Shown in pieces: positions 10,914 to 45,197 of a DNA stretch of 64,000 bases. The position numbers and the translations under genes are program-made. The notes beneath the pieces are model-generated. The model was not told where the DNA came from. It saw only the letters and a list, made by a program, of their open reading frames with translations, and ran no database searches. The stretch comes from Chryseobacterium sp. (lineage in GTDB: Bacteria; Bacteroidota; Bacteroidia; Flavobacteriales; Weeksellaceae): NCBI GenBank assembly GCA_027492795.1, contig JAPUEB010000017.1:1-64000 (forward strand). The letters are read 5' to 3'. The number at the start of each line of letters is the position of its first letter. Position 1 is the first letter of the stretch.

Positions 10914-13900
10914 TTATTCATTAATTGTAACCTTCGTTCCCTGTGTATGCGCATTCATCTGCGGTGCGTAATAGTTTTGCAAAGTGGTAATTCCATTGCT
11001 GAACGTTCCGGAAGCGTTGCACACATAATCGTATTCAAAAACATATTTTCCTTTCGGCATGTATTCAATATAGAAATTGGTTGAGGCATCTTTTGTGGAT
11101 TGGTAATATCCCAAATTGTTTTTCCATTCGTAGCCGGAAAGTACGTTTAGAGGCTCAAAACCTGCAGCTCGCATATCTTTCAGGTGAATAAATTCCATAT
11201 TTCTGTCGGTGTTCAAAATCATTCTTACCGTTACTTTATCGCCCACTTTCAATGGAGTTTGAGCAGTAATTTTCATCAACTCTTCTCCATTTTCAGTCTT
11301 GATTTTTTTGTACAGTTCTTTGGTAATGGAAATATAGCTTTCGGAAGATTTTATTTTGTCTAAATCCTCGTAATATTGCCAGAATAAACCACCCTGAACA
11401 ATTCCTGCTCCCGGTTTGGTAACGGTTACAGTTCCTAAATTTTTGTTGATTGCTTCTGGTTTCACAGTAGATTTTACGTAACCCGTCGCTATCCTCTCCC
11501 CAACCCTCTCCAAAGGAGAGGGAGTTATGGCTTTTCCGCCCCAAATAATGGTTGCTTTGTCGCTTTCATTGGAAGTCCAAGATTTTCCAGAATTCATGAT
11601 TGTGTAAATCACTTCGGCTGTTCCGCGCGAACTTCCCCAAGAATTCACCTCTTTTTGAGTGACGAGCCAAATTTTCATTTCCTCAATGAAATTGGTATCG
11701 TTTGGAGTCAATTTATTGAACGCTTCCAATGCTCCTGCATGATTGACGGTTTTTGAAGAATACCAACCCCAATCGTTCAGGTTTTGTTTCCAATAAACAC
11801 CTTGAGTTTCCGTGTTTGTCGAGGTTTCCTTTAGGTAAGTCATCAATTTTTTAGACAAATTAGTGAGTTTGAAATTATCAAATAACAACGCTGCACGATG
11901 AAGTCCGAAAAACGTGAAATCAGTAATTTTCGCAGTCGGTGCTTTTTTGATGACCAAGTTTTTCAAAGTTGCGCCTTTTCCTTTTAATGGATACTGATTT
12001 TCCCAGTAATGACGGGTATCGAGATAATCCAAAACAAAATTATTCCATATCTCTTTTGTCACGCTGAGCGAAGTCGAAGCGTCCCAATATTTGTTCACTT
12101 CATTATCCACATAAGAAATGAGTTTTGAAACCATTTCTTTTTGTTCACTTCCTTGATAATCAGAAACATTTCCTTTCAACCACTCATTAATTCTGCCTAA
12201 ATTTTTCAAAATATACAACGAGTTGTAATACGAACTCGGATAACCTTGATACCACGAAAATCCGCCATCAGGATTTTGCAGTTTTTTCAATTCTGCCCAA
12301 TCGTTTTGAATGGAATTTCTCATCGTGTTGGCATCGAAGAGCCGAGCCAGTTTCTGCATTTGTTCGGTTTCGTCTTTGCTTTCCAAAACCCATGGTGTTT
12401 CTTCTAAAAGCAGTTGTTTCAGTTCTTGATTTTTCTCCAAATTGGAAGTCAACAAACCTTTGCTTTGATATTCATCGAAAATGGTTTTCATTTTCGGATT
12501 GGCTTTAAATATTTCAGAAGCCAAAACATCGGCAAACCATTTGTTGAAGACCACATCCGCAGAATTATTTTGGTCATTTTTCAAACTTGGAAGTGCGAAC
12601 ATAATTTCCCAAATCGGATTGGTTGTGAGTTCCAATGTATTGGCAAAATTAGTGGCTGTTGTTGAATTATTTTTTGCCAAATTCTCCAAAGTGAAAGTTT
12701 TAGTTTGACCTTCTTTCACGAAAATCGGAACCGCATCCGTAACCAACATTCTGTTTGGAAGAACGGCGATTGCTTTTTGTTCACCATCGCTGAAATTTCC
12801 GCCCATACTGAGCGAAGTCGAAGTGGCAACAATTTTAACAATAATTGAAGAAACATCGTTTGGAACTTTCAATTTCCAGTTTACAACGGAATTTCCATTT
12901 TCTGCCAAACTGAAAGGTTTTTGAGTTTCATTCAAATCAAATTTTGAGGAAATATCTTTATTCGTGAACGCATCCAAAATCTGCAATTGTGCTGTTCCAC
13001 TCAATTTTTCATTCACCAAACTTGAGAGTTTCGACTGCAAGTTAAGTTCGTCGCCTTCACGCAAAAATCTTGGATAATTCGGCGTTACGGAAAACTCTTT
13101 TTGCGTTACCACTTCTTTTTCCAGCGTGGCAGCTTTTGCATCTTTGGTGTGTGCTAAAAACATCAATTTCCATTTGGTTAAAGCTTCTGGAGAAGTAAAT
13201 TCAAAGGAAACGTTTCCGTCTTTATCGGTCAATAAATTTGGATAGAAAAATGCGGTTTCGTTGAGGTTTTGGCGAAGTGCAACTTTATCTAAATTTTCTG
13301 TTTTAGGAATTTGAACTCCTGAAACTTTTCCTGCTAAACCACTTACAACAACTTCCTCCAAATTAGAGGCTTTTGCGGAATCTGCCATTGCATTTCCAGC
13401 AACTTCTGCTTTTGCCATTGGTGCAGCGGCTTCTACAGAATATGCTACAGAATTTAATCCTCTTATTCTTATTTGATTTCCATAAATCCCACCATCAAAC
13501 CAGTTAAACTGCGGAACATTCACACCATATTGCTGCAAATATTTCACTCTTTTTGAAAAATACTGTGCCGAAAGTCCTTTGCCAATTTCATAACCTACTA
13601 TAAAATAAGGCTTATTGTAAAGCGATTGCCAAGAATACTTGTTCACAGCAAACTGATCCAAAGACATATCATACATATTCGCCAAAACTTCGGCGTTGAT
13701 TTTTTCGCTTGCACTGAGCGAAGTCGAAGTGTCGCCCAAAATTTTCACGCTCCATTTTTCTTTGGAATTCGGCTCTATTTTATCTCGGAAGGTTACCGTT
13801 TCTATACGAAGATTTTTCTTTTCATTTTTAATTTTTACATCTACCGTTTTCGTCTGAACATCGTTAAATGCTACCATCTGAAACTGTACATTCAACTGCG

Positions 13901-16900
13901 AAACGCTTTCATCCGTTGGAACTGCAACTTCATACACCAAAACTCCGTTTTTCATTTTTAAAGTTTCGGTTTTGGTTTCGCCGTTTCCGGTTTGTACAAA
14001 AATATTAATCCTCACCCCATCCCTCTCCAAAGGAGAGGGAGCCGATTCGCCGTTAAATTTTTCATTTTCTGAAATTGCGGAATACACATAAATTTTTGCT
14101 TTTTCGCCTCTTTTTACCTCATCTTTTGGAGCAATGACTTCCAAGAAAGGTTTTTGGTTTTCTTTTAGCGACTTTTTATCCCAAACTTGGAAGTGTTGCA
14201 CCGATTTTATGGTGTCTTTTCCTTCGATGTTGAATAGTTCGAGTTTGTAGGTTCCGGCTGAAATCCCCCTTTCCCCCAAAGGGGAGAAAATCTCTAATAA
14301 ATTGCTGTCATTTGGTTGGACAACCTTTTCATAAACAATTTTTTCAACTTTCCAGTTTTCGATGTTGTCGTTCTTGTCATAAAAATCGTGCGGAAATTTT
14401 TGAACGAAATCATTTTTGGAAAGCTGCGGCAAATCCTGAACTTTGGATTTGAAATTATCCCTAAAGATTCTTTGCGGTTCCTGAAGTTTTTGCAATTTTA
14501 CATTATAGGATTTTTTCAGGTTCTGTTCGTTGTAATTTTTGGTTTCTACCTTTATTTTGGCATTTTCATCCGCGAAAACATTTCCTATAGCTTCTGCTTT
14601 AATATAATGCGTTACAGAAGCCACTTTCACGTTTTGTGTAGCACTTTGGGTTTCGCCGCTAATATCGGTTACGCTGGCTTCAATTTCATAATTATTCACC
14701 TGAATTCCGTCCAAAGTTTCGTCTTTTTTTAACTCAACCTTTATCGTAAATTCCCCTTTTTCATTGGTTTTTGCCGAACCTAAAATTGAATTTTCATTAT
14801 CGTTTCCGCGAGGATACCACCAATAATACATCCAACGAATATTTCGTTTTTTGATTTCGTAATTTACCGATGAATTACTCAAAGGAACTCCCGAAAACAT
14901 CACCGCTTTTCCTTTTACTTCAATGGTTTGTCCATATTTGTATTCATCTTTTATCGGCTCAAAACTCACTTCAAATTTCGGACGTTTATATTCCTCAACT
15001 CTGAAATTTTTATAACCATTAAAATCTAAATTCGAACCTTCGCTATCCACTTCTATTGAAAAACTTCCGTTTAATTTACCTTTTGGAAGCGTGAAACTGC
15101 CATTAACAGAGCCAAAATCATTGGTTGTTAAAGTTTGTTTGGAAATTTCTTCACCATTTGCATCATTAAGCGTGATATTCAGCTTCACTTTTTCAGCAAT
15201 TTTTTCTTTGGTGTCTTTTGCATTGAAAGCTGTCGCAATTACTTTAAAATAAACGGTTTGTGCAGGTCTGTAAATCGCGCGATCCAAGAAAATTTGCGCC
15301 GTTTCGTTGTCTTCTGGTTTATAATCGGAATTGTTGCGATTTCCGTAATGATTCACCAACTGATAGTTATTTCCGGAAGTTTTCAGCAAATAATATCTGT
15401 AGTAATCATTGTTTGCAGACTTTGGAAAAACAAAATTTCCCTTTTCATCGGTTTTTACAGAAGTTTTTACCAAAGGTTTCTGATGAACGTATTCATAAAA
15501 ATCAATGTTTTCATTGTTGATTTCCTTGCCATTTTCGCGATTTACCAAGCGTTCAATATCTTCTTTTGCGCTGTACGTATTTTTTTGAAAATCAATCACC
15601 CTATTTTCGGATGCAATGAAGTAAAAAGTCTTGTCAATAGAGCCTTCAACCACATATTCTACCATATAAATTCCCGAAGGAAGCGGCTTTATTTCATAAG
15701 AAGTTTCATAGGTTTTGTAATCTTTTTTGTTCTGAATTTCATAGTTTTCTTTTCTTACCAAAGTTTTTTTCACCGAAGCAAAATTATTTCGGTAACTGTC
15801 GTAAATATGGCTCAAAAATCCCTGCAAATCAGAAGTTTCGTAGATATTTAAAGAAAATTTATCCACGTTTTTATGTTCTGCAACGATGTGGATTGGTTTA
15901 TTGCTTTGCGTTTCAGCTTCGTAATGAATGCTTAATGAAGGATTTACAATCGAATTTTCCCTGTTTTTGATGTTGTTCAAAAATTTGGACTTATCAAACT
16001 GTTTTTTCACATTTTCAATAAGTGAAAGCGCTTCATTATGCTTGTTTTTTTGAACCAGTTCATCCACGATTTCACCAGCAATCATTACCTTGTAATCTCC
16101 TTCTGTTGATGAATTGTAAAGATTTTGAAGCTGCGCCAATTTGTCTTTGCAGTTGGTAAATTCGCAGTTGTAGTTCAGTTTTTGATGTTGAAAATATAAA
16201 TTAGAATTTCCTGAATTATTCTTGATTAATTCTGAATAAATTTCGTTGATTTTTGTGTGATTTACCTTCAGCTCATTTGGCGTAAAAAGTTGGCTGTTTT
16301 TAAGGAAATCAATCTGTTGAACGGCATTCCAGTCGGAAAGCGTTGGGAAATACTCCAAATTTTCCACATTGTTGAAAATTTCTTTGTATTTCGGCATTTT
16401 TATCTGTTTCAAAGCAAGATTTACCTTTTCTAATTCAAAATAATTTTTTGAAAGAAAATTTTTGAAATCCAATTTGCTCCAAGTCTCAATTTGGGAAAAA
16501 TCCTGATTGTTGATATTGGTTCTTTGGTTAATATCCCATGAATCGTTGTTATAATATTCACTAAAAAACTCGCCGAGAAGCACCTTAAAAATCAGCTTAT
16601 CCTCTCCTTTCAAATTGGCATCCATCTTTTGCAGTTTTGCGAAAAATTGTGACGCAGAATCGTTTTTTTCATCATCTCTGGTTTGGTTCACAATGCTGAA
16701 TTCGGCTTTCAGCGAGCGTATTAATTGAACGGCTTTGCTTTCTTTCATGGCGGTTTTTTGGATTTCTAAAATAATGGGAAGGTTAGATTTGTATAAACCC
16801 TGCTTGTAATTGGTTTCGATTTTTTTCCATTGGTCGTCGTAGTATTTCTGTCCAAAAACTGGAGCAAAAGCGATGAACAATAAGAAAACGGCGAAAATTT

Positions 16901-16916
16901 TCGTGAATTTTTTCAT
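10914..16916 (-). CDS. alpha-2-macroglobulin family protein (MG2-containing)
   Basis: A 2000-residue secreted protein with a Sec signal (residues 1-22, ending V-F-G-Q). Residues about 490-900 hold macroglobulin MG2/MG3-type domains (F-L-D-R-A-I-Y-R-P-A-Q-T-V-Y-F-K is the MG2 hallmark). About 1200-1300 is the A2M domain (F-F-Y-P-N-L-L-T-D ... L-T-K-W-K-L-M-F-L-A-H-T), and 1480-1760 is the terpenoid-toroid domain (P-D-G-G-F-S-W-Y). I see no C-G-E-Q thioester, so it should not trap proteases covalently. Residues about 1145-1215 contain TonB-plug-like words (I-R-I-R-G, E-E-V-V-V-S-G, G-K-V-S-G-V-Q-I). Six short palindromic repeats lie in frame inside it. It is a single gene divergent from the UbiA-like gene. 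Confidence 0.92.
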   Translation of the reverse strand: MKKFTKIFAVFLLFIAFAPVFGQKYYDDQWKKIETNYKQGLYKSNLPIILEIQKTAMKESKAVQLIRSLKAEFSIVNQTRDDEKNDSASQFFAKLQKMDANLKGEDKLIFKVLLGEFFSEYYNNDSWDINQRTNINNQDFSQIETWSKLDFKNFLSKNYFELEKVNLALKQIKMPKYKEIFNNVENLEYFPTLSDWNAVQQIDFLKNSQLFTPNELKVNHTKINEIYSELIKNNSGNSNLYFQHQKLNYNCEFTNCKDKLAQLQNLYNSSTEGDYKVMIAGEIVDELVQKNKHNEALSLIENVKKQFDKSKFLNNIKNRENSIVNPSLSIHYEAETQSNKPIHIVAEHKNVDKFSLNIYETSDLQGFLSHIYDSYRNNFASVKKTLVRKENYEIQNKKDYKTYETSYEIKPLPSGIYMVEYVVEGSIDKTFYFIASENRVIDFQKNTYSAKEDIERLVNRENGKEINNENIDFYEYVHQKPLVKTSVKTDEKGNFVFPKSANNDYYRYYLLKTSGNNYQLVNHYGNRNNSDYKPEDNETAQIFLDRAIYRPAQTVYFKVIATAFNAKDTKEKIAEKVKLNITLNDANGEEISKQTLTTNDFGSVNGSFTLPKGKLNGSFSIEVDSEGSNLDFNGYKNFRVEEYKRPKFEVSFEPIKDEYKYGQTIEVKGKAVMFSGVPLSNSSVNYEIKKRNIRWMYYWWYPRGNDNENSILGSAKTNEKGEFTIKVELKKDETLDGIQVNNYEIEASVTDISGETQSATQNVKVASVTHYIKAEAIGNVFADENAKIKVETKNYNEQNLKKSYNVKLQKLQEPQRIFRDNFKSKVQDLPQLSKNDFVQKFPHDFYDKNDNIENWKVEKIVYEKVVQPNDSNLLEIFSPLGERGISAGTYKLELFNIEGKDTIKSVQHFQVWDKKSLKENQKPFLEVIAPKDEVKRGEKAKIYVYSAISENEKFNGESAPSPLERDGVRINIFVQTGNGETKTETLKMKNGVLVYEVAVPTDESVSQLNVQFQMVAFNDVQTKTVDVKIKNEKKNLRIETVTFRDKIEPNSKEKWSVKILGDTSTSLSASEKINAEVLANMYDMSLDQFAVNKYSWQSLYNKPYFIVGYEIGKGLSAQYFSKRVKYLQQYGVNVPQFNWFDGGIYGNQIRIRGLNSVAYSVEAAAPMAKAEVAGNAMADSAKASNLEEVVVSGLAGKVSGVQIPKTENLDKVALRQNLNETAFFYPNLLTDKDGNVSFEFTSPEALTKWKLMFLAHTKDAKAATLEKEVVTQKEFSVTPNYPRFLREGDELNLQSKLSSLVNEKLSGTAQLQILDAFTNKDISSKFDLNETQKPFSLAENGNSVVNWKLKVPNDVSSIIVKIVATSTSLSMGGNFSDGEQKAIAVLPNRMLVTDAVPIFVKEGQTKTFTLENLAKNNSTTATNFANTLELTTNPIWEIMFALPSLKNDQNNSADVVFNKWFADVLASEIFKANPKMKTIFDEYQSKGLLTSNLEKNQELKQLLLEETPWVLESKDETEQMQKLARLFDANTMRNSIQNDWAELKKLQNPDGGFSWYQGYPSSYYNSLYILKNLGRINEWLKGNVSDYQGSEQKEMVSKLISYVDNEVNKYWDASTSLSVTKEIWNNFVLDYLDTRHYWENQYPLKGKGATLKNLVIKKAPTAKITDFTFFGLHRAALLFDNFKLTNLSKKLMTYLKETSTNTETQGVYWKQNLNDWGWYSSKTVNHAGALEAFNKLTPNDTNFIEEMKIWLVTQKEVNSWGSSRGTAEVIYTIMNSGKSWTSNESDKATIIWGGKAITPSPLERVGERIATGYVKSTVKPEAINKNLGTVTVTKPGAGIVQGGLFWQYYEDLDKIKSSESYISITKELYKKIKTENGEELMKITAQTPLKVGDKVTVRMILNTDRNMEFIHLKDMRAAGFEPLNVLSGYEWKNNLGYYQSTKDASTNFYIEYMPKGKYVFEYDYVCNASGTFSNGITTLQNYYAPQMNAHTQGTKVTINE
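11491..11524. repeat. in-frame palindromic element, SPLER family copy 1
   Basis: Core CCCTCTCC-AAA-GGAGAGGG. Read from the gene it encodes S-P-L-E-R-V-G-E-R-I near residues 1799-1810. About 32 of 35 bp are shared with the copy at 14009-14041, in the same frame. Confidence 0.8.
12058..12085. repeat. in-frame palindromic element, STSLS family copy 1
   Basis: Core TGAGCGAAGTCGAAG flanked by pairing arms ACGCT/AGCGT. Encodes A-S-T-S-L-S-V near residue 1612. Confidence 0.8.
12804..12827. repeat. in-frame palindromic element, STSLS family copy 2
   Basis: Same TGAGCGAAGTCGAAG core with ACT/AGT arms; encodes T-S-T-S-L-S-M near residue 1364, in the same frame as the other copies. Confidence 0.8.
13710..13733. 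repeat. in-frame palindromic element, STSLS family copy 3
   Basis: Same core with CACT/AGTG arms; encodes T-S-T-S-L-S-A near residue 1062. Confidence 0.8.
14009..14041. repeat. in-frame palindromic element, SPLER family copy 2
   Basis: CCCTCTCC-AAA-GGAGAGGG plus a shared left flank; encodes S-P-L-E-R-D-G-V-R-I near residues 960-970. Confidence 0.8.
14262..14290. repeat. in-frame palindromic element, CCCCC-AAA-GGGG family
   Basis: Encodes F-S-P-L-G-E-R-G-I near residues 877-885. The same nucleotide word recurs at the end of nosD (45008-45034) and, inverted, just before nosF (45173-45197). Confidence 0.8.
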
Positions 16917-43792: not shown

Positions 43793-45055
43793 ATGTACAA
43801 ACTACTGCTCTTGCTTTTTCCTTTTTTTGTGTTTTCGAAAACCTTAAAAGTCGGGAAAAACGAACAGTTCAAAACCATAAAACAAGCAGTCGCCGCAGCA
43901 CAACGCGGCGACACTATTTTAGTGGAAAAAGGCATCTACAGCGAAGGCACCATCGATATTGAAAAACCACTTACTTTAATCGGTATCGACCGACCAATTC
44001 TGGACGGAAAACTGAAAGACGAAATTGTCACATTTCGAGCCGACCACATCACTTTGAAAGGTTTTAAACTGATAAATTCCGGTAGAGATGAAATAAAAAG
44101 TGTCGCCGCAGTTCACATTTACAACAGCGGTTACGGTGTTATCGAAAATAATATTTTTGAAAATAACTATTTTGGAATTTACGTTCAAAGAGGTTATAAA
44201 ACATTAATTCAAAACAATAAAATTACTACAAATCGTGGTGTTTCGCAGGAAACTGTTGGCGACGGCATCCACAATCTCGGCAGCGAAGAAATTTGGATAA
44301 AACACAACTACATCAGCGGTCATAAAGACGGAATTTACCTCGAAAAAACCAAAAAATCCTACATCTACAAAAATCTTTCCCGCGAAAACCGTCGTTACGG
44401 ACTGCATTTTATGTTCGCGAACGATTGTGTTTACAGCGGAAACGTTTTCGATAACAACGCTGCAGGTGTCGCCGTAATGTACGCGATGAACGTGGGAATG
44501 TACGCCAATAAATTCCTCAACAATTGGGGCGACAGTGTTTATGGCGTTCTCTTAAAAGACATTTCCTACAGCAAAATAAAAAACAACATTTTCAACAATA
44601 ATACGACTGCTATTTTTGCTGACGGCGCCACAAAAATTGATTTTTATTACAACCAATTCGAAAATAACGGTTGGGCAATGAAAGTAAACGCCAACTGCAT
44701 GGAAAACAGAGTCTTAAAAAACAATTTTATCAACAACACCTTTGATGTCAGCACCAGCGGAAGTATTGTAATGAACGATTTTCGTGAAAATTATTGGGAC
44801 AAATACGACGGTTACGACCTCGATAAAGACAAAATCGGTGACGTTCCTTTTCATCCTTTAAGTATGTATTCAGTTCTGGTGGAGCAGAATCCTTCCGTAA
44901 TGTTGCTTTTCCGAACATTTTTTGTGGATTTACTCGATAAAACCGAAAAAGTGATTCCAAGTTTAACCCCCGAAAGTTTTGTGGATGAGAAGCCGATGAT
45001 GAAAGAAATCCCCCTTTCCCCCAAAGGGGAGAAAAACCCTAATACTAAACGTTAA
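43793..45055 (+). CDS. nosD: nitrous oxide reductase maturation protein NosD
   Basis: A 420-residue periplasmic right-handed beta-helix of the CASH/NosD type, needed with NosF and NosY to build the CuZ site. Signal peptide ends F-V-F-S-K. Repeats with N-N-x-F/I-x-N pattern run from about residue 90 to 320 (I-E-N-N-I-F-E-N-N-Y-F-G-I-Y). The last roughly 15 residues, after about residue 405, are encoded by a dispersed palindromic element (45008-45034), so the natural end of the protein was probably different. Confidence 0.95.
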   Translation: MYKLLLLLFPFFVFSKTLKVGKNEQFKTIKQAVAAAQRGDTILVEKGIYSEGTIDIEKPLTLIGIDRPILDGKLKDEIVTFRADHITLKGFKLINSGRDEIKSVAAVHIYNSGYGVIENNIFENNYFGIYVQRGYKTLIQNNKITTNRGVSQETVGDGIHNLGSEEIWIKHNYISGHKDGIYLEKTKKSYIYKNLSRENRRYGLHFMFANDCVYSGNVFDNNAAGVAVMYAMNVGMYANKFLNNWGDSVYGVLLKDISYSKIKNNIFNNNTTAIFADGATKIDFYYNQFENNGWAMKVNANCMENRVLKNNFINNTFDVSTSGSIVMNDFRENYWDKYDGYDLDKDKIGDVPFHPLSMYSVLVEQNPSVMLLFRTFFVDLLDKTEKVIPSLTPESFVDEKPMMKEIPLSPKGEKNPNTKR

Positions 45056-45197
45056 AATTATATTGTTTGATATCATAGAAATTACATTTAAAAAAGAATC
45101 ACAGTTATTAAACTGATGAATTTCAGTAAATTACATAAAAAGCATTTATTAACCACTAAAAACTACCAGTGTTCCCCCTTTGGGGGAAAGGGGGATT
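45008..45197. repeat. 190-bp MITE-like element spanning the nosD 3 prime end to the nosF start
   Basis: The left end is AATCCCCCTTTCCCCC-AAA (45008-) and the right end is its inverted copy (45173-45197); the internal 135 bp are AT-rich without an ORF. The left end codes for the NosD tail, and the right end touches the nosF ATG. The same word is inside the alpha-2-macroglobulin gene at 14262. Confidence 0.7.

Follow-up and report, generated by a model that had tools for sequence, protein, structure and literature searches.

The stretch of DNA analysed here (the window) comprises the first 64,000 nucleotides of contig JAPUEB010000017.1 from a Chryseobacterium sp. (assembly GCA_027492795.1), a member of the Weeksellaceae with a genome of 2.96 Mb (handle G000), and it contains a gene for an alpha-2-macroglobulin (A2M) family protein that hosts six short in-frame repeats. 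The gene (10914..16916, minus strand) encodes 2000 amino acids with bMG10, MG2 and A2M domains. Three copies of a repeat designated family A, two of family B and one of family C lie within it, all in frame, where a density of about 99 copies in 2.96 Mb would lead one to expect ~0.2. An initial annotation, made from the letters of the window alone, had described these six words as palindromes inserted into tolerant parts of the protein; all six copies are present, at residues 1612, 1364, 1062, 1799, 960 and 876. We examine here what these repeats are, how they relate to a nuclease domain of the DUF559 family, and which of several explanations accounts best for them.

Repeat families in the A2M gene

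The family A word, CACTGAGCGAAGTCGAAGTG, encodes STSLS at each of its three positions in the A2M gene: 12058..12081 (plus strand, motif at 12062, with an adjoining GTCA tag; residues ~1612), 12806..12825 (plus strand; residues ~1364) and 13712..13731 (plus strand; residues ~1062). Family B, which consists of CCCTCTCCTTTGGAGAGGG plus a tail and encodes SPLER, is represented on the minus strand by an element at 11491..11524 (core 11504-11522 with a GGGGAGAGGAT tail; residues ~1799, encoding SPLERVGER) and a second at 14008..14041 (core 14021-14039 with a GGGGTGAGGAT tail; residues ~960, encoding SPLERDGVR). The single family C element (word CCCCTTTGGGGGAAAGGGGG) occupies 14262..14298 on the minus strand, with its motif at 14265; it is of the right-end type, in which ATTAGAGATTTTCT is joined to the palindrome, and it encodes the word FSPLGERG at residues ~876, within LEIFSPLGERGI. 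An AlphaFold model of residues 821-2000 had a mean predicted local distance difference test score of 48, too poor for firm placement; in it most of the six sites occupy the gaps separating predicted elements or the margins of such elements, a weak sign of tolerated positions.

Across the source genome the families comprise 25 (A), 40 (B) and 34 (C) copies of 20-39 nt, compared with 0-3 for reversed-pattern controls, and these counts hold under the mismatch limits chosen; dinucleotide shuffles of the window gave no match to A and none to B. Family B folds as a strong hairpin (z -2.8) and family C as an intermediate one. Family A forms a 5-bp stem with a 12-nt interior, no better than shuffled sequence, and because the stem is only 5 bp the term palindrome suits it only loosely. 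A GTCA tag, mostly TGTCA, adjoins the core in 17 of the 25 family A copies. Tags of the CGTC/TGTC type are absent from families B and C, and no GTAG/GTGG tag was found on elements of any family. Family A is a separate, GTCA-tagged family resembling repetitive extragenic palindromes (REPs).

Filled and empty sites among A2M orthologues

The A2M protein was aligned with sequences from genome contigs and relatives (102 rows), and a FastTree phylogeny was built for 101 orthologues. In about 100 orthologues the six sites are empty or hold other repeats, with clean gaps in most. No other full-length orthologue has words at all six sites, and the A2M protein of Chryseobacterium lacus (G023), the closest relative at 76% identity, is without any of the six copies. 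The words are lineage-specific, some standing opposite gaps and others in place of ordinary sequence. The proposal of tolerated in-frame insertion is borne out by this distribution, and the contrary pattern envisaged in the initial annotation, homologues that have the peptide words in common but not the repeat at DNA level, was not seen: orthologues bearing the words also bear the repeat, and those without the DNA are also without the words. At the level of sequence, the comparison establishes that the six A2M words are in-frame insertions of repeats.

Several of the sites have been filled more than once. Family A is also found at site 1062 in Epilithonimonas and relatives, shifted by a few codons, at site 1364 in several lineages, Kaistella and C. 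edaphi among them, and at site 1612 in Chryseobacterium and Epilithonimonas. Site 1799 holds family B in three settings of frame and orientation, including another frame (G003) and the other orientation (L175). Site 876 is occupied by family C in the source genome, by family A on either strand in other genomes, and by a D-type element in C. lacus, where the stretch GGGGTGGC...GACGGGGTAGTT matches repeats beside the DUF559 genes of C. lacus and its relatives. On the tree, the six sites require 2, 3, 7, 5, 6 and 3 changes of state (26 in total). Since different families or orientations at one site cannot represent a single inherited event, these are independent landings in tolerated places, and the same A2M loops have been struck repeatedly by different families in different genera.

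Interior copies in other genes of the source genome

With gene context taken from a simple codon-usage gene caller applied to stretches of the genome, about 25 of the ~98 copies examined sit well inside long reading frames. We compared 22 interior copies with orthologues: six in A2M, three in leucyl-tRNA synthetase (LeuRS), one in isoleucyl-tRNA synthetase (IleRS), two each in PurL, CopA, SucB and MurG, and one each in ClpB, MurE, FtsK and Uup. All 22 are missing from the relatives compared (up to four for the ten proteins other than A2M), which have other sequence there. The clean insertion that had been anticipated agrees with the gaps in most A2M orthologues and not with several events that substitute host sequence, giving a net gain of only +1 to +6 codons although the element measures 20-39 nt (1 codon in IleRS, 3 in MurE and 3 at a second LeuRS site).

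Within the A2M gene each family keeps to a single frame, as had been stated; this does not extend to the genome, where family A is read as STSLS, FDFAQDD or LSEVE in different genes. The annotation had regarded random frames genome-wide as evidence against insertion, and the result is informative by half: the frames do vary, and frames containing a stop are found nowhere within genes, as must be so. The same repeat DNA also occurs between genes and in other frames of other genes. A family C element lies near the N-terminus of guanylate kinase (L120, G000:C34:10589-11224); gmk also bears a Rickettsia palindromic element (RPE) in Rickettsia (PMC2229807).

A DUF559 domain between inverted repeats in LeuRS

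The LeuRS of the source genome (L098, G000:C35:76373-80020, minus strand) is 1216 amino acids long, compared with 938-943 in four relatives, and its extra ~200 amino acids are an in-frame DUF559 (Vsr-like) nuclease domain lying between an inverted pair of family C repeats. At the identical site other genomes have DUF559 in the same arrangement, bracketed by a C variant (G018 and G030), family B (G003) or a related palindrome (G007). The site is filled in G000, G003, G018 and others and empty in G023, G025, G034 and G008, the evidence here being comparative. A second LeuRS site holds a solo family B copy in the source genome and, at exactly that position in G104, a genome from another taxonomic family of the class, a full DUF559 element. 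No sign of splicing was found for the LeuRS insert, which is probably retained as a domain of the protein, joined by linkers that the palindromes encode.

One end of the LeuRS element and the family C copy in the A2M gene share the subterminal type ATTAGAGATTTTCT. Close family C pairs in the source genome have their tails outward in 13 of 14 cases, matching the LeuRS element. From the shared end type and the outward tails we read families B and C as solo ends or short derivatives of DUF559 elements. One such pair lies in the window, formed by family C elements at 45010..45029 (minus strand, left member), at the 3' end of a 420-aa reading frame, and at 45175..45194 (plus strand, right member), at the start of the next gene. 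Related words had been reported at 45.0-45.2 kb as lying outside genes; the family C words are there, at the ends of genes and not entirely outside them. Pairs of family C or B span intergenic regions in this manner here and at L103, L118, L079 and L072, with one copy just inside a gene end and the other just inside the next gene start, so that protein termini are altered.

DUF559 and palindromes beyond the source genome

DUF559 was found in 126 of the 296 Bacteroidota genomes surveyed. Within 220 bp of DUF559, 83 of 107 loci have a pyrimidine-first, GC-rich palindrome on the left, 81 on the right and 70 on both sides; in control windows 900 bp away the figures are 0, 1 and 0 of 105, respectively. 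A model-free alignment of the flanks also scored in the cross-locus control, where the shared motif inflated it, and we relied instead on the motif test, whose controls came from within each locus. Palindromes of this class average 6.9 per genome in DUF559-positive genomes and 1.4 in DUF559-negative genomes (Mann-Whitney p 4e-10), and the excess holds under within-family permutation (p 5e-5); the reversed pattern has no excess (0.26 vs 0.68).

Frames of at least 300 aa contain DUF559 at 42 loci. The domain is internal in LeuRS (11), HsdR (6) and MetH (5), in two cases each in IcmF, a RecB-like helicase, a type ISP methylase, an Eco57I-type methylase and HsdM, and it stands at the protein end in HemF, HisF and a PurL-type amidotransferase protein, several of these hosts being named from sequence and clusters with one representative scanned per cluster. 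The residues E14, Q33, D42, E53, D55, H59 and D68 (numbering of the LeuRS copy) are invariant in 42/42 copies inside large frames, in a set whose selection for high family scores biases it towards conserved copies. The nearest solved structures by sequence are PDB 3hrl ('endonuclease-like') and 3r3p ('mobile intron protein', E 6e-4), and the Caulobacter DUF559 protein VsrA has been described as a Vsr-like PD-(D/E)XK endonuclease (PMC12907096). In-frame insertion, its recurrence, and the association of DUF559 with palindromes of the B/C type are established by these data. Individual cases include MetH, split in frame in five genomes (L225 in G041 by model match; L302, L326, L329 and L341 by clustering with L225), HsdR (L209, G027), fused isobutyryl-CoA mutase IcmF (L337, G316) and a RecB-like helicase (L333, G273).

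C/T-rich repeats adjoin DUF559 in Pseudanabaena, Azospirillum, Neisseria and E. coli as well. In one genome (L367 and G088:C1), many inverted palindrome pairs ~100 bp apart (CCTTCCCGGTGGGAAGG / CCTTCCCACCGGGAAGG) match those at the ends of that genome's DUF559 gene, in the manner of derivatives resembling miniature inverted-repeat transposable elements (MITEs). The E. coli gene ycjD (L385, L388) belongs to DUF559 and is followed downstream by repeats of the CCCTCACCCC type. In 3362 of 5426 genomes, one place beside sapF matches the ycjD query over at least 80% of its length. The gene was set aside as a strain-level test for an empty site, as the two ycjD-less strains examined have an island with a major facilitator superfamily transporter there and offer no clean junction.

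Interpretation and alternatives

We consider it probable, at roughly 0.6, that the six words are translated mobile repeats, families B and C being the ends of palindrome-DUF559-palindrome elements and family A a separate REP-like family. The wider proposition is favoured by a slender margin over its negation: that DUF559 nucleases define a new palindrome-ended mobile element, widespread in Bacteroidota and found in other phyla too, which enters core proteins (LeuRS, MetH, HsdR, IcmF) in frame as a permanent extra domain and scatters solo ends (SPLER, SPLGERG) as peptide scars. A full element would consist of a palindrome, a DUF559 nuclease gene and a second palindrome, with tails outward, and solo copies and short inverted pairs would be its non-autonomous derivatives. 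The DUF559 protein, as a Vsr-like endonuclease, may move the palindromes by nicking either the target or DNA at the hairpin ends or close to them; repair of the break would then copy in one end or the whole element, often deleting a few host codons, which would explain the replacement events. Short mobile repeats would in this way have landed in tolerant protein stretches, the copies being kept because the reading frame stayed open; as the element ends are largely free of stops, in-frame landings would yield viable proteins.

A number of observations weigh against this interpretation. Some DUF559 genes are without flanking palindromes, and alignment of left and right flanks at 111 DUF559 loci gave mixed orientation, 43 inverted and 51 direct above threshold. 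Within the source genome, family B is without a DUF559 partner, and the second DUF559 gene (C7) had no B or C flank in the motif scan. Short family C pairs differ in interior sequence, unlike a simple MITE, and no target-site duplication was recognised at the elements. No nucleotide-level empty site was found between near-identical strains, ycjD included, where the ycjD-less strains examined hold a different island at the site, and no movement was seen. Family A lies near DUF559 at only 3 of 111 loci and is not accounted for by the DUF559 model.

Among the alternatives, the strongest holds that the palindromes spread by a general process, such as template switching at hairpins, gene conversion or break repair, and that DUF559 was captured between them or homed beside them later. 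Many events do replace host sequence instead of inserting, CGTC-type REPs have no known transposase (PMC3733652), and REPs are known targets of insertion sequences (PMC1525189). Such a process fails to predict the two-sided bracketing of DUF559 in particular (70/107 vs 0/105), the intact acidic residues of DUF559 inside host proteins or the greater number of palindromes in DUF559-bearing genomes, and we regard it as unlikely. Still less likely is that A, B and C are all REPs of the ordinary kind, mobilised by REP-associated tyrosine transposases (RAYTs, of the Y1/HUH type) with DUF559 as a mere passenger. The source genome has seven Y1_Tnp-domain hits, and RAYT subclass 2.4 is abundant in Bacteroidetes, with REPs that enter tnpAREP genes in frame (PMC6006769). 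None of the seven hits is flanked by A, B or C, the nearest element being a family A copy ~0.9 kb away, nor are any of six RAYT loci from five relatives plus the source genome, and no element has a GTAG/GTGG tag. RAYTs were rejected as mobilisers of A, B and C, since their neighbourhoods hold different hairpins; those beside the RAYT-like genes of the source genome (L106, L100, L073, L096, L119 and L086), for example GCGTTCCTACGGAACGC, form a further, separate repeat set. That the words are not mobile DNA but linkers with a function, conserved in the protein sequence or reached there by convergence, is scarcely credible: they are short, hydrophilic and at recurrent sites, but identical DNA lies between genes and in other frames of other genes, the words are missing from orthologues without the DNA, and the nucleotide-level copies already refute the idea.

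The DUF559 element interpretation bears on how tag-less and CGTC-type repeats move, a question for which DUF559 is a concrete and testable candidate mobiliser. The candidacy rests on a nuclease gene that lies systematically between the same palindromes, at times within an essential tRNA synthetase, with conserved residues of active-site type intact. If the interpretation is correct, a selfish element can live on permanently, unspliced, as one of the domains of a core enzyme, and many lineage-specific linker peptides of Bacteroidota proteins would be DNA scars and not adaptations.

Comparison with known systems

In-frame palindromic repeats are a known kind, described in Rickettsia, as REPs inside open reading frames of many species and as REPs inside RAYT genes. 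The initial annotation knew of no such description for Bacteroidota; both CGTC REPs of Bacteroidetes and REPs lying in frame in organisms other than Rickettsia have in fact been published (PMC3733652), and the idea is for that reason less new than was thought. Among open-licence PMC papers, nothing relevant was found on the exact repeat sequences or on DUF559 with palindromes or LeuRS. As far as this literature shows, the new aspects are at least 22 verified in-frame events in one Bacteroidota genome, essential enzymes among their hosts, loops in which families unrelated to one another have landed repeatedly, and a systematic association with an in-frame DUF559 nuclease domain.

The resemblance to RPEs lies in short palindromic repeats that are in frame within conserved proteins and apparently tolerated (PMC2229807, PMC3733652). 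RPEs measure 105-146 bp, with long terminal inverted repeats and no mobiliser named (PMC2229807), whereas the present elements are 20-39 nt, unrelated in sequence and from Bacteroidota, and two of the families bracket a nuclease gene. CGTC/TGTC REPs, a class that counts two intragenic repeats of R. conorii, RPE-4 and RPE-6, among its members and Bacteroidetes among its hosts, have been reported without a transposase (Di Nocera et al. 2013, PMC3733652). Family A is similar in its GTCA tag, its lack of a linked transposase and its occurrence inside genes, but its 5-bp stem and large interior loop differ from the REP stem of 8-9 bp and loop of 4-5 nt, and families B and C are tagless. Set against MITEs, the pairs are inverted with outward tails, their interiors are dissimilar and no target duplication was recognised. 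With homing endonuclease elements (inteins and mobile introns such as that of 3r3p) the DUF559 elements share a sequence-related nuclease domain in essential genes, recurrent sites and a patchy distribution; the DUF559 insert differs in having no sign of splicing. The GTAG REP/RAYT system likewise combines an enzyme gene flanked by hairpin repeats with in-frame entry into a protein (PMC6006769), but the linked enzyme here is DUF559, Vsr-like and of the PD-(D/E)XK superfamily (PMC12907096), rather than an HUH transposase, and the hosts are unrelated proteins.

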